Origin: Erysipelotrichia bacterium
GTDB taxonomy: Bacteria > Bacillota_I > Bacilli_A > Erysipelotrichales > Erysipelotrichaceae
DNA length: 64,000 bases
Reading direction: 5' to 3'
Assembly (NCBI GenBank): GCA_018333955.1
Contig: JAGXSD010000011.1
Span: 1 to 64,000, forward strand
The translations under genes were made by a program, and so were the position numbers. Below the pieces are notes generated by a model. It was given only the letters and a program-made list of their open reading frames with translations, was not told the origin of the DNA and made no database searches. Every line of letters begins with the position of its first letter. Position 1 is the first letter of the stretch. Positions 17,219 through 58,441 of the stretch are shown one piece after another.

Positions 17219-17225
17219 TCCGACA
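17219..17225 (-). promoter_or_regulatory. Single TGTCGGA box (Spo0A-box-like) upstream of the arginase gene
   Basis: The minus strand reads ATATTGTCGGATA (around 17217-17229), the same core as the boxes at 51098-51114 and 55727-55743. It lies between the divergent arginase and PfpI genes. A second box one turn away is only weakly matched here. Confidence 0.35.
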
Positions 17226-17301
17226 ATATTCAACTCAAAGAGCAAGCAATCATGTTCAACAAGTGTGTTTGTGATACAATGAAACATATGGAGGTTCACC
17301 G

Positions 17302-43890: not shown

Positions 43891-43900
43891 AGAGTAAACT

Positions 43901-43926
43901 AAAAAATGGAGGTCACTCCATTTTTT
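43901..43926 (+). terminator. Terminator of the permease-hydrolase operon
   Basis: AAAAAATGGAG-GTCA-CTCCATTTTTT is an 11-bp perfect hairpin with terminal T-run. Confidence 0.88.
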
Positions 43927-43963
43927 GTTGGTGGTATAATTTGATTAAGAAAAGGAGAACCAT

Positions 43964-44356
43964 ATGATTAAAGAATTCAAAGCGTTTATTATTCGTGGGA
44001 ATGTATTTGACTTAGCAGTTGGGGTTATTATTGGAGGTGCAATGGGTCGACTTGTATCATCCTTAGTGAATGATATTATTATGCCTTTTCTAGGGTTAAT
44101 CCTTGGACGAGTGGATGTGAAAGAAATTAAGCTCATACTTGTGGAAGGCAGTGAAGCCACACCTGAAGTCGCAATATTAGTAGGATCATTTTTGCAGCAT
44201 GTGATTGATTTTATCTTGATTGGATTTGTTATCTTCTTAATTATTAAGTTTATGAATTCCTTTAAGAAGAAACAAGAAGAAGTTAAAGTCACTCCACCGC
44301 AGCCAAGTGAAGAAGTATTATTATTAAGAGAGATTGCCGCATCACTTAAAAAGTAG
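43964..44356 (+). CDS. mscL: Large-conductance mechanosensitive channel MscL
   Basis: This 130-residue channel subunit has the MscL signature near the start (FKAFIIRGNVFDLAVGVIIGGAMGRLVSSLVND), two membrane helices (about 15-40 and 75-98) and a charged C-terminal bundle ending LLREIAASLKK. A pentamer opens under membrane tension and protects against osmotic downshock. AAAGGAG precedes the ATG. It is monocistronic between terminators. Confidence 0.95.
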   Translation: MIKEFKAFIIRGNVFDLAVGVIIGGAMGRLVSSLVNDIIMPFLGLILGRVDVKEIKLILVEGSEATPEVAILVGSFLQHVIDFILIGFVIFLIIKFMNSFKKKQEEVKVTPPQPSEEVLLLREIAASLKK

Positions 44357-44372
44357 TCTAAGACTACTTTTT
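44348..44372. terminator. Bidirectional terminator between mscL and the methyltransferase
   Basis: AAAAAGTAGTC-TAA-GACTACTTTTT is a perfect 11-bp stem with A/T flanks between convergent genes; it overlaps both gene ends. Confidence 0.82.
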
Positions 44373-45083
44373 CTTTGCGACAATAATGAGAGAAGGACTG
44401 TTTTCACGCTCATAGGGTGCCAAAAGCCAAGTTCCATAGGTGTAATGAATTTCAAAGAATGGATTAAGCATGGATACTAACTGTGAATGAAATAATGGAT
44501 ATAGAATGGTTTCATCGAATTCATGAGTGTTTTGATTCTTATCAATAAGCTCAGCTTTAAACTTGAGTTGTGTTGAATCTTCAAAGAACTCATAGAATCT
44601 TTTGAACACCAGTTCATCATTTTCTATGATAGGAAGAGATGTTTTATATTGAGTAAAAATCATGTCATAGTTAACTATTTGAAGCAAAAGAAGCCCATCA
44701 GCACTCAAGAGCCCATGAAAGTCTTTTATTACATCTTGAACTTCTTCAAATGGAATATGAACAAGTGTATTCCCTAAACAGGTGATAACATCAAATGAAG
44801 CCTCTTCAAATGACTCCTTAAGTTTCGTCATGTCACAAACTTTGAACTTAAGATGTTCATTTTCTAAAGTCTTCGCATACTTGATCATAATATCACTTAA
44901 GTCGATTCCAAGCATATTTAATCCTTGTTTTTGAAGCTCTTGAGTTAATATTCCCGTGCCACATCCCACATCCAAACCAGTTTTCATAGACTCAGAGATA
45001 ATACTCTTAAATAAGGTAACATGAGCTTGAGTCAAAGGAAAAATAGTTGAATAATGGTTTGCCAAGGTTGTGTAGAATGCCAT
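44364..45083 (-). CDS. Class I SAM-dependent methyltransferase
   Basis: This 239-residue enzyme has the class I motifs: GLDVGCGTGILTQEL (motif I, about residue 38), MLGIDLSDIMIKYAK (motif II) and FDVITCLGNTLVHI (motif IV). The substrate is unknown. ATG 45083 follows AGGAGG at 5 bases; an in-frame GTG six bases upstream lies within that site and is rejected. It stands alone, divergent from the glycerol regulon. Confidence 0.85.
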   Translation of the reverse strand: MAFYTTLANHYSTIFPLTQAHVTLFKSIISESMKTGLDVGCGTGILTQELQKQGLNMLGIDLSDIMIKYAKTLENEHLKFKVCDMTKLKESFEEASFDVITCLGNTLVHIPFEEVQDVIKDFHGLLSADGLLLLQIVNYDMIFTQYKTSLPIIENDELVFKRFYEFFEDSTQLKFKAELIDKNQNTHEFDETILYPLFHSQLVSMLNPFFEIHYTYGTWLLAPYERENSPSLIIVAKKK

Positions 45084-45157
45084 AAACACCTCCTAAGTAT
45101 AGTATACCTTGAAATGAGATTAGAAAAAGTCTTGTTTTTTCACAAGAATGAGTGGAC

Positions 45158-45189
45158 TGGTTGCGCTTACAGTTTTAGTCATGTACAAT
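45158..45189 (+). promoter_or_regulatory. Promoter with overlapping cre site, first glycerol operon
   Basis: TTGCGC (45161-45166), 17-base spacer, TACAAT (45184-45189). A cre match TGGTTGCGCTTACA (45158-45171) covers the -35 box, so CcpA binding should block the promoter. The short leader that follows contains AAGTTAATAG, shared with the leader at 47083. Confidence 0.7.
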
Positions 45190-45267
45190 GAAATCAAAGT
45201 TAATAGTGGGTGAGAGAAACAGAGAAAACCCTTCTAAGCATTTTTGTCATTGGAAGGAGGATTAATC

Positions 45268-46359
45268 ATGATTGATATTATCGTGATCGGTGCTGGAATC
45301 ATTGGCAGCACAGTTTTTTATGAGTTAACAAAACAAGTGAAGAACGTCCATATCTTTGAAAAGAATAAACAAGCAGGACTAGAGGTCAGTGGTCACAATA
45401 GTGCGATTGTTCATAGTGGGGTTGATCCAGTCCCAAACACTTTAAAAGCTAAGTATAATCTTATGGGTCAAGCCATGTATGAAGAGTATGCCAAAGAGCT
45501 TGAAACACCATTTAAACGCATTGGTGCTTTTGTGGTCGCAAAAAATGATGAAGAATGTAAGCATCTTGATATCTTAGTAGAGCGCGCAAAACTGCGAAAT
45601 ATTCCAGTCAAACGTTATGATGTTCACGATGCTTTGATGTTAGAGCCAAACCTGAATTCAAACATCAAAGAGGTTTTAGATATGCCAACCACAGCCATTG
45701 TGGATCCAACTCATTTATCAGCGCAAGCTGTGAAAAAAGGAGTGAGTCTTGGAGGTCAAGCACACTTTGAAGAACATGTCATTGCGATTCATGAGCGTTT
45801 GAGTCATTTTGAAGTCATAACAAATTTTGGAATGTACCAATGTAAGGTGGTCGTCAATTGTGGTGGGCTATATGCCGATAAGATTGAAGCGTTGGTTGGA
45901 GAACCCACATTCTCATTAGAATACCGCAAAGGAGAGTATATTGTTTTATCTGAAAAGGCTCCACAAACATCAAAGAGAATTATTTACCCTGTTCCTTCAC
46001 CATTAGGAAAAGGAGTTCTTTATGTGCCTACTATAAGTGGACGAAGTTTAGTTGGACCAAATGCCGTGGATGTGGATGATTTTACTCCGCGACCAATCTT
46101 AGATGAAAGTGTTCATGATATGAAAAATAAAATGAATCAACTTTTAGATAATATTGCTTATGAGTATGAGATTGATCGATTTGTTGGATTTAGACCTCGA
46201 GTTGAGACAGATGATTTTGTGATTCATGAACATCCTCATGTGCCATATTTCTTCACTTTAGCAGGGATTGAATCTCCAGGCATTGCCAGTGCACCTGCAA
46301 TTGCTAAAGATGTCAGTACCACAATGTTACTTCCAGCATTGAAAGCACGTCGTTCATAA
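45268..46359 (+). CDS. FAD-dependent oxidoreductase, glycerol-3-phosphate dehydrogenase / LhgO-like
   Basis: This 363-residue DAO-type flavoprotein has the dinucleotide loop IVIGAGIIGSTVFYEL, the GHNSAIVHSGVDPVPNTLKAKYN block and the C-terminal GIESPGIASAPAIAKDV. These blocks are shared with GlpA and with L-2-hydroxyglutarate oxidase, so the substrate is not settled by sequence alone. It lacks the C-terminal [2Fe-2S] domain found in the paralog at 47165. ATG 45268 follows GGAAGGAGG. It is first in an operon with glpP, which favours glycerol 3-phosphate oxidation. Confidence 0.85.
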   Translation: MIDIIVIGAGIIGSTVFYELTKQVKNVHIFEKNKQAGLEVSGHNSAIVHSGVDPVPNTLKAKYNLMGQAMYEEYAKELETPFKRIGAFVVAKNDEECKHLDILVERAKLRNIPVKRYDVHDALMLEPNLNSNIKEVLDMPTTAIVDPTHLSAQAVKKGVSLGGQAHFEEHVIAIHERLSHFEVITNFGMYQCKVVVNCGGLYADKIEALVGEPTFSLEYRKGEYIVLSEKAPQTSKRIIYPVPSPLGKGVLYVPTISGRSLVGPNAVDVDDFTPRPILDESVHDMKNKMNQLLDNIAYEYEIDRFVGFRPRVETDDFVIHEHPHVPYFFTLAGIESPGIASAPAIAKDVSTTMLLPALKARRS

Positions 46360-46370
46360 AAGGAGAAAAG

Positions 46371-46973
46371 ATGTATAATAATGATAACGTAAGAGAGAAC
46401 CATACTATGATTGATATTATTAAAGCGCAATTATGCATCCCAGTTGTTCCAAGTATGAAGCGACTTGAGAAATTCATTGAAACTGATTTAACTGTATGTA
46501 TTCTACAAGATATTCACATATCATTACTTGAACATATGATTAAGATGTTACATGCCCATCATAAACTTGCTCTGGTTCATATTGATATGGTTCATGGGAT
46601 TTCAAGTGATGAACATGGAGCTGAGTTTTTATGTCAGCGTTTACGTGCTGATGGTGTTATCTCAAGTAAAACAAGAATTATTGAAACAACGAAAAAAAAC
46701 AAGAAGATTGCAATTCAACGTATGTTTTTAATTGACAGCAAGTCCATTGAGCGTGGTATTGAAACACTTCAAAAATCTCAACCCGATATCGTAGAAGTCA
46801 TGCCTGCGATTGCGTATAATATCATCCCTTACATTATCTCAAAAATTGATATTCCACTCATTGGTGGGGGATTACTTAAAACTAAAGAAGATATTCTGCA
46901 AGGTCAGAAAGCGGGTTGTATTGGATTTACAGTCAGTGATTTATGTTTATGTGTTTCCATGCATGAAGCTTAA
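46371..46973 (+). CDS. glpP: Glycerol-3-phosphate-responsive antiterminator GlpP
   Basis: This 200-residue TIM-barrel RNA-binding regulator shows family blocks: CIPVVPSMKRLEKFIE near the start, LVHIDMVHGISSDEHGAEFLCQRLRADGVISSK (about 66-98), VEVMPAIAYNIIPYI and IPLIGGGLLKTKEDI. With glycerol 3-phosphate bound, it prevents termination in leaders of glp mRNAs. ATG 46371 has AAAAGGAG at good distance. The next operon begins with a terminator-bearing leader (47105-47146), its obvious target. Confidence 0.92.
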   Translation: MYNNDNVRENHTMIDIIKAQLCIPVVPSMKRLEKFIETDLTVCILQDIHISLLEHMIKMLHAHHKLALVHIDMVHGISSDEHGAEFLCQRLRADGVISSKTRIIETTKKNKKIAIQRMFLIDSKSIERGIETLQKSQPDIVEVMPAIAYNIIPYIISKIDIPLIGGGLLKTKEDILQGQKAGCIGFTVSDLCLCVSMHEA

Positions 46974-46987
46974 GAAAATGTTACAAA

Positions 46988-46995
46988 TTGTCGAA
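46988..46995 (+). promoter_or_regulatory. Canonical Spo0A-type box upstream of the glpA-like promoter
   Basis: TTGTCGAA contains the exact 7-base 0A box TGTCGAA (46989-46995), 52 bases upstream of the -35 box at 47047. A partial second match lies 10 bases before it. A Spo0A-like regulator is encoded as the fourth gene of the operon that this promoter drives. Confidence 0.5.
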
Positions 46996-47015
46996 TTTAG
47001 TAACAAATGTGAAAA

Positions 47016-47029
47016 AGTAAGCGCTTTAC
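47016..47029 (+). promoter_or_regulatory. cre-like site upstream of the glpA-like promoter
   Basis: AGTAAGCGCTTTAC has the TAAGCGCTTTA core of a CcpA site, 18 bases upstream of the -35 box. Confidence 0.55.
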
Positions 47030-47046
47030 AATCTTTAAGAAAAGCA

Positions 47047-47075
47047 TTGCATGAACATATGTCATGCGCTATAAT
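47047..47075 (+). promoter_or_regulatory. Promoter of the glpA-like operon
   Basis: TTGCAT (47047-47052), exactly 17 bases, perfect TATAAT (47070-47075). The transcript begins shortly before the terminator-bearing leader. Confidence 0.8.
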
Positions 47076-47104
47076 GTAGTTACAAGTTAATAGACACACA
47101 AGAG

Positions 47105-47146
47105 ACACCAGAGTAGATGTATTCCAAATCTATTTTGGTGTTTTTA
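47105..47146 (+). terminator. Leader terminator, probable GlpP antitermination target
   Basis: A 14-pair stem (47105-47118 with 47128-47141, two or three G-U pairs), 9-base loop and T-run lies between the promoter and the first gene. A terminator in a 90-base leader just after glpP matches the GlpP control known from Bacillus glpD. The leader shares AAGTTAATAG with the glpP operon leader. Confidence 0.75.
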
Positions 47147-47164
47147 TTTGAAGGAGGAGCACAC

Positions 47165-48604
47165 ATGTACGATGTTGTGATTGTCGGAGCCGGGATCAAT
47201 GGTGGACTATTAGCACAACGCTTGTCAAAGTTTGACTTAAGAGTTGCTCTGTTAGAAAAAGATAATGATGTTGCGAATGAAGCAACAGCCGCTAACAGTG
47301 CAATTATTCACTCTGGTCATGACCCAAAAACAGGCACATTGAAGGCTAAACTAAATGTTAGAGGAAATGCACTTTGGGAAGATCTTTGTAAAGAATTGAA
47401 AGTTGATTTTATTCGTAATGGCGCATTTGTGGTGGCGGTTAACGAAGAAGAGAGAGCAAAACTAAGTGAGCTATATCATCAAGCTCAAGAACGTGGTGTA
47501 CCAAGTCGATTGATTAATCGTGAGGAAGCCATTCAACTCGAACCTAATTTAAGTGATGCGGTTGTGGAAGCCCTAGATTTGCCATCCACAGGAATCGTAT
47601 CTCCTTGGGAAGTCACCATTGCAGCCATTGAAGATGCAATGAATCATGGACTTCATTTATTCCTCAATCATAAAGTTGTGAGTATAGATAAAAAAGAAGG
47701 ATATTTTGAAATCACAACCCCTAAATCCGTATTTCAAACTAAGGTGGTTATTAATGCGGCCGGAGTATATTCAGACGAGATTTATGCGATGGTTTCAAAA
47801 CAAACCCACTACAAAATTACTCCTCGTCGTGGTGAATACTATGTCTTAGATCGTGCTGTAAAACCTGTTGTGTCACGCACCATTTATCCACTGCCTTCTG
47901 AAAAAGGAAAAGGGGTTCTTGTGGTACCAACGATTCATGACAATATCTTAATTGGACCTAACTCCGATATTATTTCGGATAAAGAAGGTAAAGATAATAC
48001 TGCAGAAGCATTGGCTTATGTGAAGGAACAAGTTGCAAAAACGGTTAAAAATATCCCAATGCATACGATCATTCGTACTTACGTTGGATTACGTCCTTCA
48101 CATTTAGATTATGATTTTGTGATTGAAGAAGCACCGGATGTCAAAAACTTTATCAACTTAATTGGAGTTGATTCTCCAGGGCTAGCATCTGCTCCTGCCA
48201 TTGCAGAATATGTTGAGAACATCCTTTCAGATATATTGCCTCTTAGACATAAAACAGAACCTAGAACACCTCGACGTCCTTGGATTATTTTAAATCGTAT
48301 GAGCGTTGAAGAAAAACAAGCGATGTTTGAACAAGATGCTAAGTTTGGCCAAATGGTGTGTCGTTGTGAACTCGTGAGTGAAGGTGAAATCATCGATGTC
48401 ATTCATCGTAATGCGGGAGCACGTACTGTGAAAGCTGTGAAACGTCGTGTTCGAGCAGGTGCAGGGCGTTGTCAAGGTGGTTTCTGTGAACCTCGTGTCA
48501 TTGCCATTTTAGCTCGTGAACTACGTATTAAACCTACACAAGTCCTCTTGGATTCTGATGAATCAACGATACTTGTTGGTGAAACAAAGGAGAACCTAGC
48601 ATGA
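47165..48604 (+). CDS. Anaerobic glycerol-3-phosphate dehydrogenase-like flavoprotein with C-terminal [2Fe-2S] domain
   Basis: This 479-residue protein has a DAO FAD domain (IVGAGINGGLLAQRL; TAANSAIIHSGHDPKTGTLKAKLN) and, after residue 395, a BFD-type [2Fe-2S] domain with cysteines in VCRCELVSEGEI and GRCQGGFC. This is the GlpA-like layout of Bacillota. It works with the two genes downstream, an FAD/NAD(P) oxidoreductase and a DUF1667 protein, as a GlpABC-like complex that oxidises glycerol 3-phosphate to DHAP. ATG 47165 follows GAAGGAGGAG; the longer reading runs back into the leader terminator. Confidence 0.9.
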   Translation: MYDVVIVGAGINGGLLAQRLSKFDLRVALLEKDNDVANEATAANSAIIHSGHDPKTGTLKAKLNVRGNALWEDLCKELKVDFIRNGAFVVAVNEEERAKLSELYHQAQERGVPSRLINREEAIQLEPNLSDAVVEALDLPSTGIVSPWEVTIAAIEDAMNHGLHLFLNHKVVSIDKKEGYFEITTPKSVFQTKVVINAAGVYSDEIYAMVSKQTHYKITPRRGEYYVLDRAVKPVVSRTIYPLPSEKGKGVLVVPTIHDNILIGPNSDIISDKEGKDNTAEALAYVKEQVAKTVKNIPMHTIIRTYVGLRPSHLDYDFVIEEAPDVKNFINLIGVDSPGLASAPAIAEYVENILSDILPLRHKTEPRTPRRPWIILNRMSVEEKQAMFEQDAKFGQMVCRCELVSEGEIIDVIHRNAGARTVKAVKRRVRAGAGRCQGGFCEPRVIAILARELRIKPTQVLLDSDESTILVGETKENLA

Positions 48605-49860
48605 AACACTTTGATTTAATCATCATTGGCGGGGGTAGTGCTGGTCTTGCGGCAGCAGTCAGTGCTTATGAGAACGGTGTAAGAGATATTCTTATTTTAG
48701 AACGTGACAAAGAACTTGGCGGTATTTTGCAACAATGCATTCATAATGGATTTGGAGTTCATACTTTTAAAGAAGAACTATCAGGCCCAGGATTTGCAGA
48801 GCGCTTTATTAACTTAGTCAATCAAAATCATATTACTTATAAACTCAATGCCATGGTCATTCATATGAATGATAATAAAACATTAGAATATGTTAGTCCT
48901 GAAGAAGGATACGTCGTTGTGAAGGGTGGTGCCATTATCTTAGCAATGGGATGTCGTGAACGTACCCGTGGTGCGATTGCGGTTCCAGGATATCGTCCTT
49001 CAGGCGTTTGGAGTGCTGGTACAGCCCAACGTTACCTCAACATGGAAGGTTTCATGGTTGGGAAAAAGATTTTTATCTTAGGCAGTGGAGATATTGGTTT
49101 AATTATGGCTCGTCGCTTAACCCTTGAAGGTGCTGAAGTGAAGGGTGTTGCGGAAATCATGCCTTATTCAAATGGACTTCCTCGAAACATTAAACAATGT
49201 CTTGAAGATTTCGACATTCCATTATTCTTAAGCCACACCATCACTAAAATTGATGGACTAGATCGAGTGAGTGGTGTCACGATTGCTCAAGTTGATGAGA
49301 AGATGCAACCGATTGCAGGAACTGAAAAGACCTTTGATGTTGATACAGTTTTATTCTCGATTGGTCTTATTCCAGAAAATGCTTTGACTGAGGAAGCCAA
49401 TATTGAAATGGATCCAAAAACACGAGGTCCAAAAGTTGATGAGTCTTATCAAACCTCACTAGATGGTGTATTTGCTTGTGGTAACGTTTTACATGTTCAT
49501 GATTTAGTAGATTTTGTGGCGGAAGAAGGTCGTAAAGCTGGTATTGCAGCTGCGAAATACATTAATGAACAGTTACAAACAGGAGCGGTAGTTGCGACTA
49601 TGGCTAAAGAAGGGATTGGATACATTGTTCCTCAGTTTATTCATCCAGTCAATCTAGACAAAACCGTTGAACTTATGTTTAGAGTAAGAAAACAATATCG
49701 TAATGTGGAACTTGTCATTAAAAAAGATAATGAAGTTTTACGTGTGATTAAGAAAAAACACTTAGCCCCAGCAGAAATGGAAAAAGTGATTTTGAAAGCT
49801 TCAGATGTTGCAGCGTGTGAACACACATTAAGTATTGAAGTTGTGGAGGTGGTTGCATGA
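48601..49860 (+). CDS. NAD(P)/FAD-dependent oxidoreductase, accessory to GlpA-like protein
   Basis: This 419-residue pyridine-nucleotide-disulfide-like flavoprotein has the FAD loop IIGGGSAGLAAAVSAYENG, LGGILQQCIHNGFG near residue 40, a second dinucleotide loop IFILGSGDIGLIMARRL (about 158-174) and the C-terminal GVFACGNVLHVHDLVDFVAEEG. It takes the place of GlpB, passing electrons from the GlpA-like subunit to NAD(P) or the membrane. It overlaps both neighbours by ATGA. Confidence 0.88.
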   Translation: MKHFDLIIIGGGSAGLAAAVSAYENGVRDILILERDKELGGILQQCIHNGFGVHTFKEELSGPGFAERFINLVNQNHITYKLNAMVIHMNDNKTLEYVSPEEGYVVVKGGAIILAMGCRERTRGAIAVPGYRPSGVWSAGTAQRYLNMEGFMVGKKIFILGSGDIGLIMARRLTLEGAEVKGVAEIMPYSNGLPRNIKQCLEDFDIPLFLSHTITKIDGLDRVSGVTIAQVDEKMQPIAGTEKTFDVDTVLFSIGLIPENALTEEANIEMDPKTRGPKVDESYQTSLDGVFACGNVLHVHDLVDFVAEEGRKAGIAAAKYINEQLQTGAVVATMAKEGIGYIVPQFIHPVNLDKTVELMFRVRKQYRNVELVIKKDNEVLRVIKKKHLAPAEMEKVILKASDVAACEHTLSIEVVEVVA

Positions 49861-50228
49861 AAAAGCATGAAATGATTTGCATTGTTTGTCCTATGAGTTG
49901 TCATCTTGAAGTAGATCTTGATGATCAAGGACAAGTCCTTAATGTGGCAGGTAATGCATGTAATCGTGGGGATGTCTATGCACGCAAAGAACTTACAAAT
50001 CCAACACGTATGTTAACTAGTACTGTGAAGATATTAGGTGCTATGTATGAGCGTCTACCAGTCATTACGTCATCCGATATTCCTAAAGGGATGATGTTTG
50101 AAGTGATGAAAGCCTTAGCTCATGTGGAAGTCGTTGCGCCAATCAAGATGAATGAAGTGATCATAAAAAATGTTTGTGGATTAGATGTTGACATCATTGC
50201 CTCAAGAAGCATGGAGCGTACACATTAA
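49857..50228 (+). CDS. DUF1667 protein, GlpA-associated cysteine-rich subunit
   Basis: This 123-residue protein has four near-N-terminal cysteines of the DUF1667 family: CIVCPMSCHLEV and the later GNACNRGDVYARKELTNPTRMLTSTVKI. It probably binds a metal cluster and links the GlpA-like dehydrogenase with its electron acceptor. DUF1667 genes follow GlpA-like/oxidoreductase pairs in many Bacillota. It overlaps the upstream gene by ATGA and abuts the response regulator gene. Confidence 0.88.
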   Translation: MKKHEMICIVCPMSCHLEVDLDDQGQVLNVAGNACNRGDVYARKELTNPTRMLTSTVKILGAMYERLPVITSSDIPKGMMFEVMKALAHVEVVAPIKMNEVIIKNVCGLDVDIIASRSMERTH

Positions 50229-50263
50229 TGTCAATTCAAGCTCGTTCAAAAGAAGTTGTTACG

Positions 50264-51028
50264 ATGAGTAAAAACATTAAACACGTCATGGTCGTTGATG
50301 ATAGTCATTTTGGTTTGAAAAAAATGGTTGAAATGTTAGATCATGTTGCGGATTTTAGTGTTGTAGCAAAAGCAAAAGATGGTTATGAAGCATTAGCAAT
50401 TATGAAACGTCAACACATTGATGTTATCTTACTTGACCTTTTCATGCCAAAATGTGATGGACTAGCATTTCTTAAACAAGCTCATTTTGACAAGCTATTA
50501 ACACGCACTAAGGTGATTGTTTTATCAGAAATTCAAGATGACAATGTCATTGAACAAGCTTTAGAATGGGGAGCAAATTTCGTCTTATTTAAGCCTTTTA
50601 CTTCCCAAACATTAGTTGAGCGTTTACGAATACTTACAGCTGAAAAAAACAATGATGGTCAAGAACAAAGTAGTCTTAACTCGTTAATTATTAAAAATCT
50701 AATGGATAGTGGCTTGCCATCACACACCTTTGGGTATCAATATTTTAGACTAGCTGTTGAGCATGTTCTAAAAGATTCAATTGGTGTATTTTCCATCACT
50801 AAAACTATTTATCCCTATGTGGCTGAAATGTTTAAAACAAGTAGTGGAAACGTTGATAAAGCCATGCGTCATAGTTTGTCATTAGCTTTCGAGCATAATA
50901 AGGATCGACTTAAACAATTCTTGATTTCTATGAACTATAAAGATCCAAGTCGTAAACCTTCTAACTCGGAATACATGGGTATGATATTAGAAAAAATCAA
51001 AGAAGATATGTATCGATCTCACTCATAG
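50264..51028 (+). CDS. Spo0A-like response regulator in the glycerol operon
   Basis: This 254-residue protein has an N-terminal receiver (HVMVVDDSHFGLKK, acidic pocket; phospho-Asp58 in ILLDLFMPKCDG; KVIVLSE; lysine in FVLFKPF) and a C-terminal Spo0A DNA-binding domain (about 145-250). The latter aligns by eye with Spo0A: GYQYFRLAVEHV, SITKTIYPYVAEMF, the recognition helix VDKAMRHSLSLAF (Bacillus: VERAIRHAIEVAW) and KPSNSEYMGMI. It is fourth in the glpA-like operon, with no histidine kinase nearby. The start could also be ATG 50228, coupled to the DUF1667 stop. It is likely a paralog controlling glycerol genes rather than sporulation. Confidence 0.88.
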   Translation: MSKNIKHVMVVDDSHFGLKKMVEMLDHVADFSVVAKAKDGYEALAIMKRQHIDVILLDLFMPKCDGLAFLKQAHFDKLLTRTKVIVLSEIQDDNVIEQALEWGANFVLFKPFTSQTLVERLRILTAEKNNDGQEQSSLNSLIIKNLMDSGLPSHTFGYQYFRLAVEHVLKDSIGVFSITKTIYPYVAEMFKTSSGNVDKAMRHSLSLAFEHNKDRLKQFLISMNYKDPSRKPSNSEYMGMILEKIKEDMYRSHS

Positions 51029-51055
51029 TGTCAAATGTGAGATAAAAATTTCCCT

Positions 51056-51114
51056 CGCGACAATATCACAAGGTTGGTTTCATCAATCTTTCACACCAGT
51101 CGGATATTGTCGCT
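51056..51114. promoter_or_regulatory. Cluster of Spo0A-like boxes upstream of the glycerol transporter operon
   Basis: AGTCGGA (51098-51104) and TGTCGCT (51108-51114) are tandem with 10-base spacing. An inverted TGTCGCG box lies at 51056-51062. The 11-base arms GCGACAATATC (51057-51067) and GATATTGTCGC (51103-51113) are perfect complements 35 bases apart. The 15-mer AGTCGGATATTGTCG is repeated exactly upstream of dhaK. Confidence 0.6.
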
Positions 51115-51130
51115 CCCCTTAGGGTTTAAA

Positions 51131-51144
51131 TGTAAGCGCTTTTA
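51131..51144 (+). promoter_or_regulatory. cre site upstream of the glycerol transporter operon
   Basis: TGTAAGCGCTTTTA matches the CcpA consensus except near the end; it follows the Spo0A-like boxes. Confidence 0.6.
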
Positions 51145-51195
51145 ATTTAAAATTAAAGGTAAGGGCAGATAAAAAACCCTAAACATTCACAAGGA

Positions 51196-51275
51196 TTGAA
51201 CTTTGAAGTTTTAGATTCACAACCTCATCCATTGTGGTTCAAAAGCTTCAAGTCAACATAGATAGCGAAAGCTAT
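51196..51275 (+). ncRNA. Structured 5' leader of the glycerol transporter operon
   Basis: A long imperfect hairpin (51196-51208 with 51246-51256, inner CACAA/TTGTG stem with loop CCTCATCCA) is followed by a compact ATAGC-GAAA-GCTAT tetraloop stem (51262-51275) just before the ribosome binding site. No T-run follows, so it is not an ordinary terminator. It could bind a regulator or control translation. I know no named riboswitch of this form. Confidence 0.4.
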
Positions 51276-51294
51276 GGAAAGGAAAGAGGTTATT

Positions 51295-51654
51295 ATGAAG
51301 TTTCTTAGAAGTGTTCTAGGATACGCCATCGCAGGTATGTTCGTTATGTCTGTATGGGGTCCAATGGCGTCTTTAGAATCGTTTGGAATTATCGGTGGTT
51401 GGTTTGCTGCATTCGCAATCATTGGTCCAATGTGGTTCTTAAATCATTATGTAGGAGTTATTCCACATGAAGCAGATTCTGGATTTGTCGACATGGCTAC
51501 TGGTATTGGTATTGCTGGGGTTATGCGTGATGTATTCGGAGCTGGTTCAATCGATCCACTTATTGCTACATTACCAACTTTAGGTTTAGTGATTTTAGGA
51601 GGCGTTATCGGGGGATACCTCGCCGCTAAAGTCGAAGAAAGCATGGAGGGCTAA
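51295..51654 (+). CDS. Lin0368-type small membrane protein, putative glycerol transporter subunit
   Basis: This 119-residue protein has three or four hydrophobic helices with conserved features MSVWGPMASLESFGIIGGWFAAFAIIGPMWFLNHYVGVI and a C-terminal GGVIGGYLAAK. It resembles the Lin0368 family of Listeria as I recall it, described as a putative glycerol transporter subunit. It is paired with a sister gene 5 bases downstream and with glpK, while no GlpF gene appears. The ATG follows AAAGAGG; an upstream ATG (51274) would extend into the leader stem. Confidence 0.75.
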   Translation: MKFLRSVLGYAIAGMFVMSVWGPMASLESFGIIGGWFAAFAIIGPMWFLNHYVGVIPHEADSGFVDMATGIGIAGVMRDVFGAGSIDPLIATLPTLGLVILGGVIGGYLAAKVEESMEG

Positions 51655-51659
51655 GAATT

Positions 51660-52001
51660 ATGACAATTCAACAAGCAATTGCGACCGTAGTTGGCGCAGC
51701 AATATTCCCATTCTTAATCCGTTTACTTTGGGGAAAATTAGTTGATAATTTTGGAACGTTTGGTGGTTGGATGGCTGCTGCGTTCATCGTTGGTACTACT
51801 TGGGCTCTTAACCATGGTACTGGTATGATTACTCAATCAGCAGGCGGCGCTTGGGTTGATATGGCGTTTGCTGCTTCTGCAGGTTTATTAGTGGCTTCAG
51901 TTGTTCGTGGTGGAAGTTTCTCAAAAGCTGTTCCTAATTTAGTTGCTGCATTAGTTGGTGGCGTATTAGGCGGATTATTCTTATCATTCTATTTATTCTA
52001 A
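51660..52001 (+). CDS. Second Lin0368-type membrane protein, putative glycerol transporter subunit
   Basis: This 113-residue protein is a distant sister of its neighbour: FGTFGGWMAAAFIVGTTWALNHGTGMI parallels the GIIGGWFAAFAIIGPMWFLNHYVGVI segment, followed by a proposed WVDMAFA helix and a glycine-rich last helix (VGGVLGGLFLSFYLF). Two related small subunits suggest a hetero-oligomeric channel or carrier. It lies just before glpK in the same operon. Confidence 0.75.
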   Translation: MTIQQAIATVVGAAIFPFLIRLLWGKLVDNFGTFGGWMAAAFIVGTTWALNHGTGMITQSAGGAWVDMAFAASAGLLVASVVRGGSFSKAVPNLVAALVGGVLGGLFLSFYLF

Positions 52002-52041
52002 TCTAGGTATTATTGTGGCTACCATGGTCACAAAAACATAA

Positions 52042-53553
<1,512 letters not shown>

Positions 53554-53572
53554 ACTTTCCCTCATCTTGGAT

Positions 53573-53607
53573 GAAAAAACGTATGGAGTCAAATCCTGCG
53601 TTTTTTC
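53573..53607 (+). terminator. Terminator or attenuator between glpK and dhaM
   Basis: GAAAAAACG pairs with CGTTTTTTC around an inner GGA/TCC stem. dhaM follows on the same strand 28 bases later with no clear promoter, so readthrough is likely. Confidence 0.65.
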
Positions 53608-53634
53608 AATTCAAGAACAATACAAGGAGACTTT

Positions 53635-54033
53635 ATGATCACTTTTATCTTAGTTTCTCATAGTCAAAAAATTAGTGATGGAATTGTGGACATGATTACT
53701 CAAATGGTGCCTTCTCAAGACGTTAAAGTTATTTCTGCAGGAGGGACTGAGGATGGTGGCATTGGTACCGATCCAATGCGTATTCAAGCTTATATTGAAG
53801 ACAATGCTATGAGTGAGCGAATTTACTTATTCGCAGATATTGGAAGTTCAATTATGAGTATTGAAATGGTACTCGAACTCATCGATGAATCCTTAAAACA
53901 AAAATGCGTCTATCTTGACGCACCGATAGTGGAAGGAGCATTCATTGCTGCAGTTCAAGCCATGGTTGATCCAAGCCATGATTCAATTCTAAGAGAAGTA
54001 AATAAACTAAAAAGCGATCAAGTTGAATCTTGA
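53635..54033 (+). CDS. dhaM: PTS-dependent dihydroxyacetone kinase phosphotransferase subunit DhaM
   Basis: This 132-residue mannose-type EIIA domain has the active histidine (His9) in FILVSHSQKISDG and a conserved GGTEDGGIGTDPMRI segment (about 39-53). It takes phosphate from HPr and passes it to ADP bound in DhaL. It lacks the HPr and EI-like domains of E. coli DhaM, the usual short form in Bacillota. It is convergent to dhaL, an unusual split of the dhaKLM set. Confidence 0.92.
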   Translation: MITFILVSHSQKISDGIVDMITQMVPSQDVKVISAGGTEDGGIGTDPMRIQAYIEDNAMSERIYLFADIGSSIMSIEMVLELIDESLKQKCVYLDAPIVEGAFIAAVQAMVDPSHDSILREVNKLKSDQVES

Positions 54034-54047
54034 TCGCTTGTTTTTTA
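54012..54047. terminator. Bidirectional terminator between dhaM and dhaL
   Basis: AAGCGATCAAG-TTGAAT-CTTGATCGCTT is a perfect 11-bp stem followed by GTTTTTT; it spans the end of dhaM and serves both convergent genes. Confidence 0.88.
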
Positions 54048-54635
54048 TAACACTTGTAGTAATGCTTTGAATAGTAAACCGGAAGAGAATGAACCTGGAT
54101 CAATGTGACCGATTGAGCGGTCGCCTAAATATGAAGCACGACCTTTAGTCGCTTTTAAAGGCGCAGTATCATTCACAAATTGATCAACGAGAGCTTCATT
54201 TAATTCATGACGTTTTAATGCTTCAATCGCTGGTAACCACACATCAATCATTGTTTTTTCATGACGTGTTGCTTTACCTCTAAGCATTATTGAATCAACA
54301 CCAGCTTGTAATGCACTCACAAGTTGATCGTGGTCTATTTCTGGAGCATCTTGAATTGCTTTGGCCATGGCTAAGAAAGCTGAGCCATATAGCGGGCCAG
54401 AAGCACCACCAACTTTACTTAATAAAGTCATACCTAAGAGTTTGCATTCTTCACTGATGGATAATTCTTGTTTTGCTTGACGAGCCTCTTTATAGAAAGT
54501 TGCTCCTTTAGCCATATTGAATCCATGATCACCATCGCCAATCGCATTATCAAGATCACTCATGTATTCTTTATATGTCTGAATGTCTTTTGACCACACT
54601 TCAAACCATTGGGTAAATGCGAGTGGAGTCATCAT
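54045..54635 (-). CDS. dhaL: Dihydroxyacetone kinase subunit DhaL
   Basis: This 196-residue ADP-binding subunit has the DhaL signatures: LDNAIGDGDHGFNMAKGA (metal-binding aspartates, near residue 30), a conserved GGASGPLYGSAFLAMA (about 75-90), and the C-terminal GRASYLGDRSIGHIDPGSFSSGLL. DhaM phosphorylates its bound ADP, and it then phosphorylates dihydroxyacetone held by DhaK. Its start lies one base from the dhaK stop, so they are coupled. Confidence 0.95.
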   Translation of the reverse strand: MMTPLAFTQWFEVWSKDIQTYKEYMSDLDNAIGDGDHGFNMAKGATFYKEARQAKQELSISEECKLLGMTLLSKVGGASGPLYGSAFLAMAKAIQDAPEIDHDQLVSALQAGVDSIMLRGKATRHEKTMIDVWLPAIEALKRHELNEALVDQFVNDTAPLKATKGRASYLGDRSIGHIDPGSFSSGLLFKALLQVL

Positions 54636-54636
54636 T

Positions 54637-55629
54637 TTACCACGCAGCCACTTTCACTTCTTGGTCAAGATATTCTACCCAACGAGGATCCTTAACTCTT
54701 AGTAGAGTTAATGAGATACCTTGCATTTCAATAGAAGTCATCTTATTACCAATAAGTTTACGAGACACTTCAATCTTATGTTCGCCTAAAATATTAAGTA
54801 CATCATTCATGAATACATATTGTTCCATAAGTGGAGTTCCACCAAGACCATTCACGAATGCGACTACTTTTTCACCAGCAGTAAGTTTTAGTTCCGCAAC
54901 AATCTTATCGATAAATTCTTTAGCCATCACTTTGGAAGGTTGTAGTTTAGCACGACGATAGCCTGGTTCACCATGGATACCGAGTCCGAATTCAATTTCA
55001 TCTTCTCCAAGTTCGAAGCCAGGTTTTCCAGCTTGTGGAACGATTGCAGGAGTTAATGCTAGGCCTAAAGTTGCCATTTGAGTAATAAGGACTTCTGATT
55101 CAGCTTTAATTTCTTCTAGTGTTGCGCCATTTTCCGCAAGAGCACCTAAGATTTTGTGAACTAGTACAGTTCCCGCAACCCCACGACGTCCTTCAGTCCA
55201 TGTGGATCCTTCAACCGCGATATCATCATTTGTAATGACAAAATCAACTTTAATGTTGTCCATCTCTTCTGCCATTTCTTTCGCCATGGTGAAGTTAATG
55301 ACGTCACCAGTATAATTCTTAATGACTAAGAAAACACCGGCTCCTTTATCAGCGGCTTTAATTCCTTCATAAACTTGATCAACAGTTGGAGATGTGAATA
55401 CATCACCACAGACGGCAGTACTTAACATACCTTTCCCTACAAATCCAGCGTGAGATGGTTCATGTCCACTACCACCTCCAGAAACTAATCCTACTTTACC
55501 TTTGCCTTCGTAGTTACGAGCGACTACACGAGTGTCGCCGACGCGGTGCACGATATCTTCGTGAGTGGCAACTAGGCCATTAATCATTTCTTCTACGACG
55601 TCTTCTGGTCTGTTCAGAATCTTTTTCAT
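54637..55629 (-). CDS. dhaK: Dihydroxyacetone kinase subunit DhaK
   Basis: This 330-residue subunit binds dihydroxyacetone covalently through a histidine (His219, in FGLGIHGEPGYR). Other blocks are VSGGGSGHEPSHAGFVGKGML (about 50-70) and the C-terminal AFVNGLGGTPLMEQYV. With DhaL and DhaM it converts dihydroxyacetone to DHAP at the expense of PEP. AAAGGAGG precedes the ATG. It has its own promoter with a cre site and tandem Spo0A-like boxes. Confidence 0.95.
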   Translation of the reverse strand: MKKILNRPEDVVEEMINGLVATHEDIVHRVGDTRVVARNYEGKGKVGLVSGGGSGHEPSHAGFVGKGMLSTAVCGDVFTSPTVDQVYEGIKAADKGAGVFLVIKNYTGDVINFTMAKEMAEEMDNIKVDFVITNDDIAVEGSTWTEGRRGVAGTVLVHKILGALAENGATLEEIKAESEVLITQMATLGLALTPAIVPQAGKPGFELGEDEIEFGLGIHGEPGYRRAKLQPSKVMAKEFIDKIVAELKLTAGEKVVAFVNGLGGTPLMEQYVFMNDVLNILGEHKIEVSRKLIGNKMTSIEMQGISLTLLRVKDPRWVEYLDQEVKVAAW

Positions 55630-55668
55630 GGTTCCTCCTTTTGATCAACAGAACATGATACACATAGG

Positions 55669-55682
55669 TGTATACGCTTACA
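55669..55682 (-). promoter_or_regulatory. cre site at the dhaK transcription start
   Basis: TGTATACGCTTACA is a near-perfect CcpA site placed immediately downstream of the -10 box, a strong repressing position. Confidence 0.75.
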
Positions 55683-55711
55683 TTGTAGTCCTTTTTTTAG
55701 GTTAAATGCAA
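55682..55711 (-). promoter_or_regulatory. dhaKL promoter
   Basis: On the minus strand TTGCAT (55706-55711), 18-base spacer, TACAAT (55682-55687). Confidence 0.7.
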
Positions 55712-55725
55712 AAGAAAAACCTTGC

Positions 55726-55745
55726 GAGTCGGATATTGTCGGATA
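55726..55745. promoter_or_regulatory. Tandem Spo0A-like boxes upstream of the dhaKL promoter
   Basis: AGTCGGA (55727-55733) and TGTCGGA (55737-55743) form an exact GTCGGATA direct repeat with 10-base spacing. They end 16 bases upstream of the -35 box, a typical activator position. Each differs from the 0A box TGTCGAA by one or two bases. Confidence 0.6.
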
Positions 55746-55950
55746 AATATTCTAAAGAATCCATAACGTTTAGAAAGACTTTAAAGTTATCTCAATTGAT
55801 TTGGAATTGTGCAGATAAGTATCAAAACACTAAACATGATTAGCTTCAATATCGACATTATCAACTCTTTAAATGCATTAATGAGTAGAGATGTGGTCAA
55901 TTTTTAGATTTAAATATGAGGATTAATATAGTCTATGCTATGATATCGCT

Positions 55951-57123
55951 ATGAAAAAACTAGTTATTATCGGGGGTGGTCCTGCTGGATGCATGGCCGC
56001 AATCAGTGCAAAAACACATCATCCTGAAATGGAAGTCATCTTGATTGAGCGAAATGCTCGCTTAGGCGAAAAGCTTCGCTTAAGTGGGGGAGGACGTTGT
56101 AATATCAGTGCCAATGTCACAAATCAAGTTGTCATCGAACAAACTCCCCGACATGGACGTTTTCTTTATGCATCATTAGAATCAATGAATCCACCATTAA
56201 TCAAGAAATTCTTTAGTGAAAGAGGATGTCCCTTAGTGGAAGAGGACCATCAACGATTATTTCCACAGTCACACAAAGCAAGTGATGTCATGGATGTTCT
56301 TGTTAGAGAAATGAATAAACTCGGTGTGAAAATCATACTTCATACCAAAGTAGAACACGTGGACCTTAAGAAAAATCACATTCAAACTTCAGAAACAGTT
56401 TATAAGTTTGATCATTGTATCATTGCAGTGGGGGGACTTAGCTATCCTCATACAGGCAGCGATGGTGAACTTTTACTCAAAATGAAATCATATCTTGAAA
56501 TAAGTGAACTATATCCTGCTGAGACGCCATTAGTAAGCCATGAGGCCTTTATTCAATCAAAATGTATTCAAGGGATATCATTAAAAGATGTGTCTTTAAC
56601 GCTCTATATTGAAGGCAAAAAGAAGAAACAAGTGATTCATGATTTGTTATTTACGCATTTTGGTCTTTCTGGACCTGCTGCACTACAGTGTAGCAGTGTG
56701 TGTCGTGATTGCTTTGTAAAGAAGCAAAAAGTGATGTGTAAACTGGATATGTTACCTCAATTCAAATACCATGAGGTTGAAAATATGCTCAAAACACATT
56801 CACTCAAAGAAGTATGTTTAAAGTATCAATTACCCGCTCGCTTAATCAAAGCCTATGAAATGCTTTCAATTGACTTAAGTGAAATCGAATTCTTAAAAGC
56901 ATGGCCAATTCATATTCATGATATGCGAGGTTTTAATCAAGCCTTTGTGACCAGTGGAGGAGTCAGCGTTAAAGAGATTGATCCTAAAACTATGAAATCG
57001 AAATCATTTCCTCTACTCAGTGTTTGTGGAGAAGCGCTTGATGTGCATTCTCATACAGGGGGATTTAATATCACCATCGCCATGAGCACAGGATATCATG
57101 CTGGGAAGAATTTCAAAGACTAA
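55951..57123 (+). CDS. HI0933/BaiN-family NAD(P)/FAD-dependent flavoprotein
   Basis: This 390-residue flavoprotein has the Rossmann loop IIGGGPAGCMAAISAKTHHP, then IERNARLGEKLRLSGGGRCNISAN (about 31-54), FPQSHKASDVMDVL, VGGLSYPHTGSDGELL and the C-terminal SGGVSVKEIDPKTMKSK with LLSVCGEALDVHSHTGGFNI. All are hallmarks of the HI0933 family, which includes BaiN; most members have no proven role. It is monocistronic with its own terminator. Confidence 0.9.
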   Translation: MKKLVIIGGGPAGCMAAISAKTHHPEMEVILIERNARLGEKLRLSGGGRCNISANVTNQVVIEQTPRHGRFLYASLESMNPPLIKKFFSERGCPLVEEDHQRLFPQSHKASDVMDVLVREMNKLGVKIILHTKVEHVDLKKNHIQTSETVYKFDHCIIAVGGLSYPHTGSDGELLLKMKSYLEISELYPAETPLVSHEAFIQSKCIQGISLKDVSLTLYIEGKKKKQVIHDLLFTHFGLSGPAALQCSSVCRDCFVKKQKVMCKLDMLPQFKYHEVENMLKTHSLKEVCLKYQLPARLIKAYEMLSIDLSEIEFLKAWPIHIHDMRGFNQAFVTSGGVSVKEIDPKTMKSKSFPLLSVCGEALDVHSHTGGFNITIAMSTGYHAGKNFKD

Positions 57124-57124
57124 A

Positions 57125-57148
57125 AAAGAGAATCGTGAGATTCTCTTT
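57125..57148. terminator. Bidirectional terminator between the flavoprotein and the ascorbate-type IIC
   Basis: AAAGAGAATC-GTGA-GATTCTCTTT is a perfect 10-bp stem between convergent genes. Confidence 0.82.
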
Positions 57149-57154
57149 ATCATT

Positions 57155-58441
57155 TTATGCAAGTAATCGAGCAAATAAACCTTGGATAATCGCCCAAAGT
57201 GAGAAGTCATTTCCACCAAAGATGACAATCCAGTCAGCAACAGTTGTTTGTAGGAATGGAATTGAGAAGGCCACAAGTAGGACCATGACAACCCCAGCCA
57301 CAGCGGAACCTAAGATAGCTCCACGACGACCACCCGTTGCATTACCAATGATTGATGCAGTACCAATTTCAAAGAAACATGTAATCGTAAGTGGGGCAAT
57401 CACATAAGGGAATACTCCAAATACCGCAAGAAGTACGATTGCTGCAGTGGAACTAATCATAGACACGACAAACCCAATAATTAATGCATTAGGAGCATAT
57501 GGGAATAATAATGGGCAGTCAAGTGCAGGAATAGCATCTGGAATAAGTTTCTCTTGGAATCCAGTGAATGCTGGAACGATTTCCGCAATCATCATGCGTA
57601 CACCAAGGAGTAGCACAGTTAAACCAGCACCGAAAGCTAAACCTTGAGTGAGTAAGAAACGGAATACTTGAGCTGTAGAAGCAACTCCAAATACTTCAAG
57701 TGCATTTTGTCCACTAAAGGTTAAGACAAGCATGAGGATACCATATACGAGTACGATAACGATTGATGAAGTAATGGAAATTTCTTTTAAGAATGATAAG
57801 TTTTTAGAGAATTTAAGATCTTCTGTCGATTTACTCTTATCACCAAACCATTTGCCAATATAACCAGCAATGAGTGATAAACCAACTGTTGGATGCCCTA
57901 AAGTGAATGAATCATCCTTCGTCACTTCTTTAACAAATGGGCGAATAATATTAGGTGTAATGACCATGTATGCGGCAGTAAATAATGTCGCGACTAAGAC
58001 TAAGGTTACACCTGATAATCCAGCATCAACCCCAGCTGCAACGAAGATAAATGGGAACCAATATAACATGTGTCCTGTTAAGAAAACAGCTTTCCATTTA
58101 GTGAAACGCGCAACAAGTAAGTTGATGGCGAATGCTGAGACCATAGCAATCCCAATTGAAGAACCATATTGGTTCATGAAGGCTGCGGAACCCATAGAGA
58201 CGATGGCTTCACCACCATCACCACTAAAGACACCAAAGGCACCAAGTAGAGGTAAGATAGCACCGATAATGATATCAACCCCTTTAGTTAGAATAACAAC
58301 ACCTAATGCAGTTTTGAAAGTCCCTGATAACACTTCAGGAAATGACTTGCGTTGCAAGAGCAATCCTAAAAAGGCAATCAAAGATAGGAAGATTGGAGCA
58401 CTACCGAAAATTTCGTTAATGATAAAATCTAATACAGCCAT
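57155..58441 (-). CDS. PTS transporter subunit IIC, ascorbate type (UlaA/SgaT family)
   Basis: This 428-residue permease has about 11 helices and the UlaA-like blocks FKTALGVVILTKGVDIIIG, AINLLVARFTKWKAVFLTGHMLYW and VTKDDSFTLGHPTVGLSLIAGYIG. It forms the membrane channel for the IIA and IIB subunits encoded upstream. Ascorbate itself is not certain: the operon has a SIS-domain protein and none of the ascorbate catabolic genes. A 20-bp palindrome (58458-58477) lies just before its ribosome binding site. Confidence 0.88.
   Translation of the reverse strand: MAVLDFIINEIFGSAPIFLSLIAFLGLLLQRKSFPEVLSGTFKTALGVVILTKGVDIIIGAILPLLGAFGVFSGDGGEAIVSMGSAAFMNQYGSSIGIAMVSAFAINLLVARFTKWKAVFLTGHMLYWFPFIFVAAGVDAGLSGVTLVLVATLFTAAYMVITPNIIRPFVKEVTKDDSFTLGHPTVGLSLIAGYIGKWFGDKSKSTEDLKFSKNLSFLKEISITSSIVIVLVYGILMLVLTFSGQNALEVFGVASTAQVFRFLLTQGLAFGAGLTVLLLGVRMMIAEIVPAFTGFQEKLIPDAIPALDCPLLFPYAPNALIIGFVVSMISSTAAIVLLAVFGVFPYVIAPLTITCFFEIGTASIIGNATGGRRGAILGSAVAGVVMVLLVAFSIPFLQTTVADWIVIFGGNDFSLWAIIQGLFARLLA

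Follow-up and report, generated by a model that had tools for sequence, protein, structure and literature searches.

In Bacillus, the glp genes are controlled by GlpP antitermination and by CcpA. A 3-bp spacer and a 10-bp period between 0A boxes are typical for Spo0A dimers, as at abrB. The core of the Spo0A box is TGTCGAA, with contacts at G2, C4, and G5, and binding by the full-length protein requires phosphorylation-dependent dimerisation (PMC3485338, in part). SpoIVA reportedly occurs in all spore-forming bacilli and clostridia, and the same source lists 30 genomes of Spo0A-bearing non-spore-formers (PMC3533761, in part). Loss of sporulation has been described in Erysipelotrichales and relatives (PMC10868615, in part), and Spo0A of Clostridium touches solvent metabolism (PMC4690370, in part). 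In the open-access literature searched, we found neither a Spo0A dedicated to glycerol genes nor a defined metabolic target set for the Spo0A of a non-spore-former.

Here we describe a gene for a Spo0A-family response regulator in a glycerol operon of an Erysipelotrichaceae genome, located within a stretch of 64,000 nucleotides that we call the window. We consider it probable that this protein and its relatives (glp-type Spo0A) are dedicated to glycerol and dihydroxyacetone use in non-sporulating Erysipelotrichaceae, probably as an activator beside GlpP and CcpA. Like the sporulation Spo0A of Bacillus and Clostridia, the protein has a receiver, a Spo0A_C domain, a full acidic pocket, and predicted 0A boxes with G2, C4, and G5; unlike it, the protein scores below the TIGR02875 cut-off (146 vs 200), has the helix NVDKAMRH, is linked to glp genes, has a very small predicted target set, and occurs in a host with no SpoIVA or SigF match. 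It resembles the Spo0A of non-spore-forming Firmicutes (Macrococcus, Exiguobacterium, and others) in being a Spo0A-type regulator without sporulation machinery, but Macrococcus is said to have ‘a typical Spo0A’ (PMC3533761, in part), whereas the protein here is divergent and tied to defined predicted metabolic operators. With Clostridium Spo0A it would share action on fermentation genes via 0A boxes in an organism that uses glycerol; that protein, however, is a sporulation Spo0A with metabolic side targets (PMC4690370, in part), and for the glp-type protein no sporulation role is visible. The likeness to glp control in Bacillus lies in the adjoining glpP, the leader terminator before glpA, and cre-like sites at three promoters (by eye); the difference is a predicted response-regulator layer added on the glpK and dhaKL promoters.

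The features of the region are listed in Table 1. The gene names glpK (from sequence similarity across relatives) and dhaL (from position) are presumptive, as are the cre-like and promoter motifs in the glpA leader, which were assigned by eye.

Table 1 Features of the glycerol region and other candidate sites in the window (operators, promoters, and target operons are predictions)
Feature	Position	Strand	Remark
Possible third site AGTTGAATATTGTCG before DJ-1/PfpI gene at 17302	17221..17235	-	One mismatch
GlpP-type glycerol-3-phosphate responsive antiterminator	46371..46973	+	PF04309, 165.4 bits
Lone TTGTCGAA upstream of glpA	46988..46995	+	Unconserved, probably no operator
glpA leader	47015..47149	+	By eye: cre-like 47015-47030, -35 TTGCAT 47047-47052, -10 TATAAT 47070-47075
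Terminator-like stem in glpA leader	~47105-47149	+	By eye; probable GlpP target
GlpA-like FAD-dependent oxidoreductase with BFD [2Fe-2S] domain	47162..48604	+	Operon gene 1
Pyridine nucleotide-disulphide oxidoreductase	48601..49860	+	
DUF1667 protein	49857..50228	+	Stop codon overlaps spo0A start
glp-type Spo0A response regulator (receiver + Spo0A_C)	50228..51028	+	Likely start 50228 rather than 50264
Tandem 0A-box operator AGTCGGATATTGTCG before DUF6905ab-glpK	51098..51112	+	Predicted
Putative promoter TTTAAA-17-TAAAAT	51125..51153	+	Inference
cre-like ATGTAAGCGCTTTTAA in putative DUF6905-glpK promoter	51130-51145	+	Inference
Target operon DUF6905a, DUF6905b, glpK	51295..53553	+	Predicted; likely DUF6905a start 51295
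Target operon dhaL + dhaK (dihydroxyacetone kinase)	54045..55629	-	Predicted
Tandem 0A-box operator AGTCGGATATTGTCG before dhaK	55727..55741	+	Predicted; gene on - strand

The gene is an intact open reading frame for a response regulator whose receiver and DNA-binding domains both match Pfam above the cut-offs (Response_reg, 82.6 bits; Spo0A_C, 73.4 bits). It lies directly 3′ of the genes for the GlpA-like protein, the pyridine nucleotide-disulphide oxidoreductase, which is a second flavoprotein, and DUF1667, and the ends of the operon genes overlap. The first-pass annotation had read the same two domains and the same fourth place in the operon, and the Pfam matches and coordinates bear this out. 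The frame that it gave, 50264-51028, is real, but its start has been shifted: ATG 50228 is the more likely translation start, because it overlaps the DUF1667 stop codon (TTAATG), because the resulting 12-residue N-terminal extension (MSIQARSKE...) is kept in five genomes (that of the window and L032-L035), and because L035 has Ile instead of Met at the 50264 position and thus no start codon there.

All eight glp-type proteins compared matched both PF00072 and PF08769 at E up to 0.001, and the receiver pocket (D12, D13, D58, S88, K110) was invariant in all of them. Many canonical Erysipelotrichales Spo0A receivers (L003-L031) have lost the paired acidic residues (e.g., ILEEN vs xxDDx) that the glp-type protein retains. 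In the predicted structure (mean pLDDT 85.3), a linker of low confidence joins two domains. A comparison by fold matched the receiver to Spo0A receivers in the PDB; among the best 50 of 585 fold matches, these receivers were present and no Spo0A DNA-binding domain was found. By sequence comparison with solved structures, the matches were to the Spo0A receivers 5wq0 and 1dz3/1qmp and the DNA-binding domains 1lq1 and 1fc3.

The recognition helix reads NVDKAMRH in 8/8 glp-type proteins and RVERAIRH in 30/30 canonical rows, which are the best-scoring loci in relatives and not a random sample. In its longer form the window helix is SGNVDKAMRH; SRVERAIRH, present in all 30 canonical relatives, occurs in none of the eight glp-type rows. 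The difference between VDKAMRH and VERAIRH was seen in the first-pass annotation and is real, but the count of two changes was wrong: there are three (E to D, R to K, and I to M), and a fourth change (R to N) immediately precedes these seven residues. The helix changes are real and diagnostic for the glp-type protein. Against the NCBIfam Spo0A equivalog TIGR02875 (cut-off 200 bits), the window protein scored 146.3 bits and those of G003, G001, and G012 scored 154.6, 188.5, and 203.8 bits, respectively, compared with 266-358 bits for 7/7 canonical relatives used as controls. By this model, the window protein belongs to the Spo0A family without reaching the level of the curated sporulation Spo0A. 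Members of the glp-type group score on both sides of the cut-off, and because the G012 protein just passes, the cut-off separates the two kinds imperfectly.

Phylogenetic trees were built after removal of the duplicate rows L037-L039 (the same as L032-L034). The glp-type proteins formed a single group, with support of 95/97 in the wide tree and 100/100 in the narrow tree, on a very long branch. An AU test did not reject a grouping of this clade with the canonical Spo0A of the same family (p-AU 0.279); therefore, a rebuilt sporulation Spo0A and an older split are both compatible with the data. Spore-forming relatives (L014-L022, L043-L055) carry further Spo0A_C proteins besides the canonical gene, nine of them with RVEQ(A/S)IRH helices; the others are very divergent, with receiver residues lost or not aligned.

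The distribution of the protein was determined with a profile built from the eight glp-type proteins, which was used to scan 272 genomes of the family and 395 genomes sampled from the class. In the family, 12 genomes (G000, which is that of the window, G001-G004, G648, G012, G066, G652, G653, G655, and G656) had a match at 415-477 bits, and the next best match, at 159 bits, was a canonical Spo0A. The class sample included only the window's own genome from these 12, and its best other match scored 179 bits. Among the matches listed, with at most nine candidates scored per genome, no canonical-type Spo0A above 100 bits was present in the 12 carriers. One carrier, G648, is by coordinates the genome of L035 and has another genus label (g26); relatives with the gene are named Erysipelotrichaceae, ‘Erysipelothrix sp.’, and ‘Bacillota’ MAGs. 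The order oxidoreductase-DUF1667-spo0A with glpK nearby was held in 12/12 carriers, which excludes chance linkage. The glpK gene lies downstream with DUF6905 in G000, G002-G004, and G648 and is convergent in G001 and six genomes of genus g8; because these two arrangements surround a constant core, the core linkage has outlived rearrangement. The original proposal that a Spo0A-family protein is encoded in, and apparently dedicated to, glycerol metabolism is supported.

In the entire window genome (1.81 Mb, 99.3% complete) PF08769 matched only once, and a second Spo0A was therefore rejected; the term paralog, used in the first-pass annotation for a second copy beside a bona fide Spo0A, is not borne out. 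A single Spo0A_C, of the same divergent kind, was likewise found in each of G001-G004 (which share the genus), G012, and G066. SpoIVA was absent in 9/9 genomes searched (six of genus g1, two of g8, and G138), and 4/4 spore-former controls were positive. The SigF model gave at most 112 bits in 13/13 genomes of the glp group vs 274-289 bits in 5/5 spore-former controls, which themselves fall under the curated 321-bit cut-off. The matches in the 13 genomes were mostly frames of 440-461 codons resembling the housekeeping sigma factor. With no SpoIVA and no SigF-like factor found, the glp-type Spo0A can hardly serve classical sporulation, and by these two markers its hosts seem to be non-sporulating. 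Thus, of the earlier caution that this might be the only Spo0A and control sporulation, the first half holds and the second is unlikely.

A different reading of these results is that an old sporulation Spo0A was kept after sporulation was lost and runs a broad stationary-phase programme, its place in the glp operon being incidental. Such a history would agree with the known Spo0A-bearing non-spore-formers (PMC3533761, in part), with the fact that no scanned genome lists both a glp-type and a canonical Spo0A, with the AU test, which allows the same-family canonical grouping (p 0.279), and with the score of the G012 protein (203.8 vs 200). It does not account well for a linkage that persists in 12/12 genomes despite differing downstream arrangements, for a clade cut off by a very long branch (100/100), or for an exact tandem site (see below) that occurs only one to three times per genome, with 19/30 at glycerol or dihydroxyacetone promoters. 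We consider this explanation unlikely, and a dedicated glycerol regulator remains our preferred interpretation.

Comparison of promoters showed that AGTCGGATATTGTCG precedes both DUF6905a and dhaK in the window genome and in relatives. The site consists of two 0A-like boxes with a 3-bp spacer (NGTCGRA-NNT-TGTCG), both of which retain G2, C4, and G5; variation is seen mainly at base 1 and at A6 in the upstream box and, in the other box, at the bases that follow TGTCG. A marked shift in box preference, proposed earlier as an effect of the helix changes, is not supported, since the conserved sites retain these three bases of TGTCGAA in both boxes. Among the three regions suggested at that time as binding sites, 51050-51120 and 55720-55750 each carry a conserved tandem pair of predicted 0A boxes, and 46980-47000 contains a lone box that relatives do not have.

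The dhaK site starts 108-112 bp before the ATG in 12/12 testable close orthologs (≥77% identity), representing 11/12 glp-Spo0A genomes and G005 (in G652 the contig breaks off at 58 bp); because of the relatedness among the genomes, such counts are not independent trials. The dhaK promoters of G653, G655, and G656 carry the site even though they were left out of the motif derivation. In 250 bp upstream of 14 other dhaK homologs (three orthologs with 55-66% identity in G014, G008, and G055, seven paralogs in glp-Spo0A genomes, and four others) the tandem site was found in none, and G014, G008, and G055 have no Spo0A_C match. The site is on opposite strands in g1 and g8 at an equal distance from the gene, which argues for function rather than simple inheritance of a block. 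A matrix made from the dhaK sites alone recovered the DUF6905-glpK site in 6/11 genomes (G000-G004 and G648) at 19.8-25.1 bits. With this tandem matrix, four control DUF6905a promoters gave no like site, although that of G068, a genome with no Spo0A_C match, had a weak hit of 8.0 bits (shuffled level for this promoter, 4.4). In the five g8 genomes that have DUF6905a, the best scores there were 4.4-7.8 bits and did not exceed the shuffled 95% level (7.7-9.3 bits); by eye, these five promoters have instead a pair of perfect, inversely ordered TGTCGAA boxes (TTCGACA...TGTCGAA) at one shared place.

Because the predicted operators rest on sequence and the recognition-helix residues differ from those of canonical Spo0A, the tandem sequence might belong to another regulator, with the co-encoded Spo0A acting elsewhere or not at all; the 65% complete assembly G005, which has the dhaK site and in which no glp-type Spo0A was found, would fit this. 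We think this very unlikely, because the half-sites are 0A boxes with the 3-bp spacer of Spo0A dimers, as at abrB, and the dhaK homologs of the three genomes with no Spo0A_C match (G014, G008, and G055) have no such tandem boxes.

The exact pattern NGTCGRANNTTGTCG occurs at 30 places in 14 genomes vs three for the reversed pattern, which corresponds to one to three exact tandem sites per genome (the tandem pattern was counted, not single boxes). The 19 matches at glycerol or dihydroxyacetone promoters precede dhaK (13) or the DUF6905-glpK operon (6); the others precede a transporter and hydrogenase-like operon in g8 (4) or PfpI (1), lie ~400 bp before one gene that by eye seems to encode a PAS protein (2), or are elsewhere (4, three of them inside reading frames). 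In G003, G004, and G648, the dhaK and glpK-operon sites are the only exact matches. The window has three matches with at most one mismatch; the mean in shuffled sequences was 0.22, and three were reached in 1/100 shuffles. The third exact match in the window genome (on C49) is in a dhaK promoter that seems to come from a second strain. L086, on this short contig, has a dhaK upstream region 89% identical to that of the window and different neighbours, as if two strains or species were present in the assembly. The PfpI site was strong in two of six orthologs (G000, 19.0 bits; G001, 16.1 bits), and the PfpI promoter of G014, which has no Spo0A, gave a weak match (8.9 vs 8.0 shuffled); PfpI is at best a weak candidate for the regulon. 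In the four g8 genomes concerned (G012, where the locus is L094, C41:5755-13840; G652; G653; G655), the tandem 0A boxes precede a lipoprotein gene, which is followed in G012 by genes for an ABC permease and hydrogenase-like proteins (Fe_hyd_lg_C, Complex1_51K, and a 2Fe-2S thioredoxin-like protein).

The lone box upstream of glpA was rejected as an operator, because the 260 bp that precede glpA in L032, L033, L035, G001, G012, and G066 do not contain TTGTCGAA (G066 has TGTCGTA further up, and the L034 contig starts too close to judge). No conserved site was found before glpA in the relatives compared. The box, a perfect one, lies within an unconserved dyad, GTTACAAATTGTCGAATTTAGTAAC, at 46980-47004 that may belong to another regulator.

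The region surrounding the operator before DUF6905ab-glpK can also be drawn as a long hairpin (51060-51115). Its loop, TTTCATCAATCTTTCACA, is conserved, and its inner stem seems to covary among G000, G002, G003, and G004; L035 does not have the hairpin. If this element acted as RNA, in a terminator or leader, the inverted arms and the seemingly covarying stem around the loop (by eye) would have an explanation other than a DNA site. G648/L035 and G001, however, have no 5′ arm yet retain the tandem site, and no matching arm is visible by eye at the dhaK copies, which makes an RNA role highly improbable; we continue to treat the sequence as a predicted DNA operator. No known RNA family (Rfam) was found in 43900-57200 at E up to 1. 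The 5′ leader of DUF6905a-DUF6905b-glpK (51189-51297) has the pattern GGATTGAAC ... GTCAA ... GCGAAAGC ... AAAGGA, present in 11/15 DUF6905a upstream regions. Its stems vary in sequence and are alike in shape; single folds gave z of -1.6 to -3.2 (6 of 11 leaders), and RNAalifold on a plain MAFFT alignment yielded only 2 pairs. The two tandem DUF6905 proteins (51295-52001) are small, hydrophobic, and presumably membrane proteins that occupy the place expected for a glycerol facilitator beside glpK, and the pair may be a glycerol entry route. For DUF6905a, the start at 51295 is more likely than that at 51274.

In the glpA leader the motif ACAAGTTAATA...AGAGACA is conserved in relatives. By eye, cre-like sites are found at all three promoters, and the glpK and dhaKL promoters are without a glpA-type leader. 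A promoter scan gave 25 promoter-like sites vs 25.3 in shuffles and so by itself proves nothing; the -10 and -35 assignments are weak. From these assignments, the predicted operators of DUF6905ab-glpK and dhaKL would centre ~55-65 bp before the points where transcription is presumed to begin. Because they lie upstream of poor presumed -35 elements, at about -55 to -65, an arrangement typical of activation, both operons are most likely activated. The same protein and operators could instead repress glpK and dhaKL: the direction of control is not readable from sequence, canonical Spo0A does both (PMC4690370, in part), and the cre-like sites already suggest repression, by CcpA. Given the position of the sites, we regard repression by Spo0A as rather unlikely and favor activation.

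In the mechanism that we propose, glycerol-3-phosphate would probably induce the whole glpA-...-spo0A operon through GlpP antitermination, as suggested by the conserved leader with its terminator-like stem and by the adjoining glpP of the window genome, and CcpA would repress at the cre site, as the cre-like sites suggest. Spo0A would then dimerise on the two tandem 0A boxes, presumably after phosphorylation of Asp58 (numbered from 50264). If both operons are activated, glycerol and dihydroxyacetone entry would follow the same signal, and a feed-forward loop would result in which glycerol entry raises Spo0A, which in turn raises glpK and dhaKL. The hydrogenase-like operon that is preceded by the tandem site in g8 would suit the disposal of extra glycerol electrons.

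HATPase_c had 14 matches in the window genome, four of which look by eye like GyrB, ParE, MutL, and HtpG; the other ten are kinases, all of which adjoin a response regulator, so that no orphan kinase was found by this domain. Judged by its domains, a multi-PAS hybrid kinase on C22 is our best guess for a phosphate donor. This 1552-residue histidine kinase (L251:321-6069) is found with an HD-domain response regulator, and the genes beside it resemble those for NfnAB. A bolder version of the proposal, which we hold only tentatively and think somewhat doubtful, is that this Spo0A lineage stands wholly outside sporulation, as a dedicated carbon-source regulator with the 0A-box code kept, a changed helix, and no visible kinase of its own. 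The switch for such a protein could be a small phosphodonor or the protein's own abundance as induced by glycerol-3-phosphate, and the protein might have been rebuilt from the sporulation switch or preserve an older metabolic role of Spo0A.

Spo0A is a marker gene for spore formation, and the reason for its retention in non-spore-formers has been unclear. For the glp-Spo0A group, likely targets can now be named at two promoters, and the sequences suggest that the switch now serves carbon metabolism instead of sporulation. The changed helices with a retained box provide a natural set for studying Spo0A specificity. The group warns that sporulation is not predictable from spo0A alone, and it would illustrate how a master switch of development can turn into a local regulator of metabolism.
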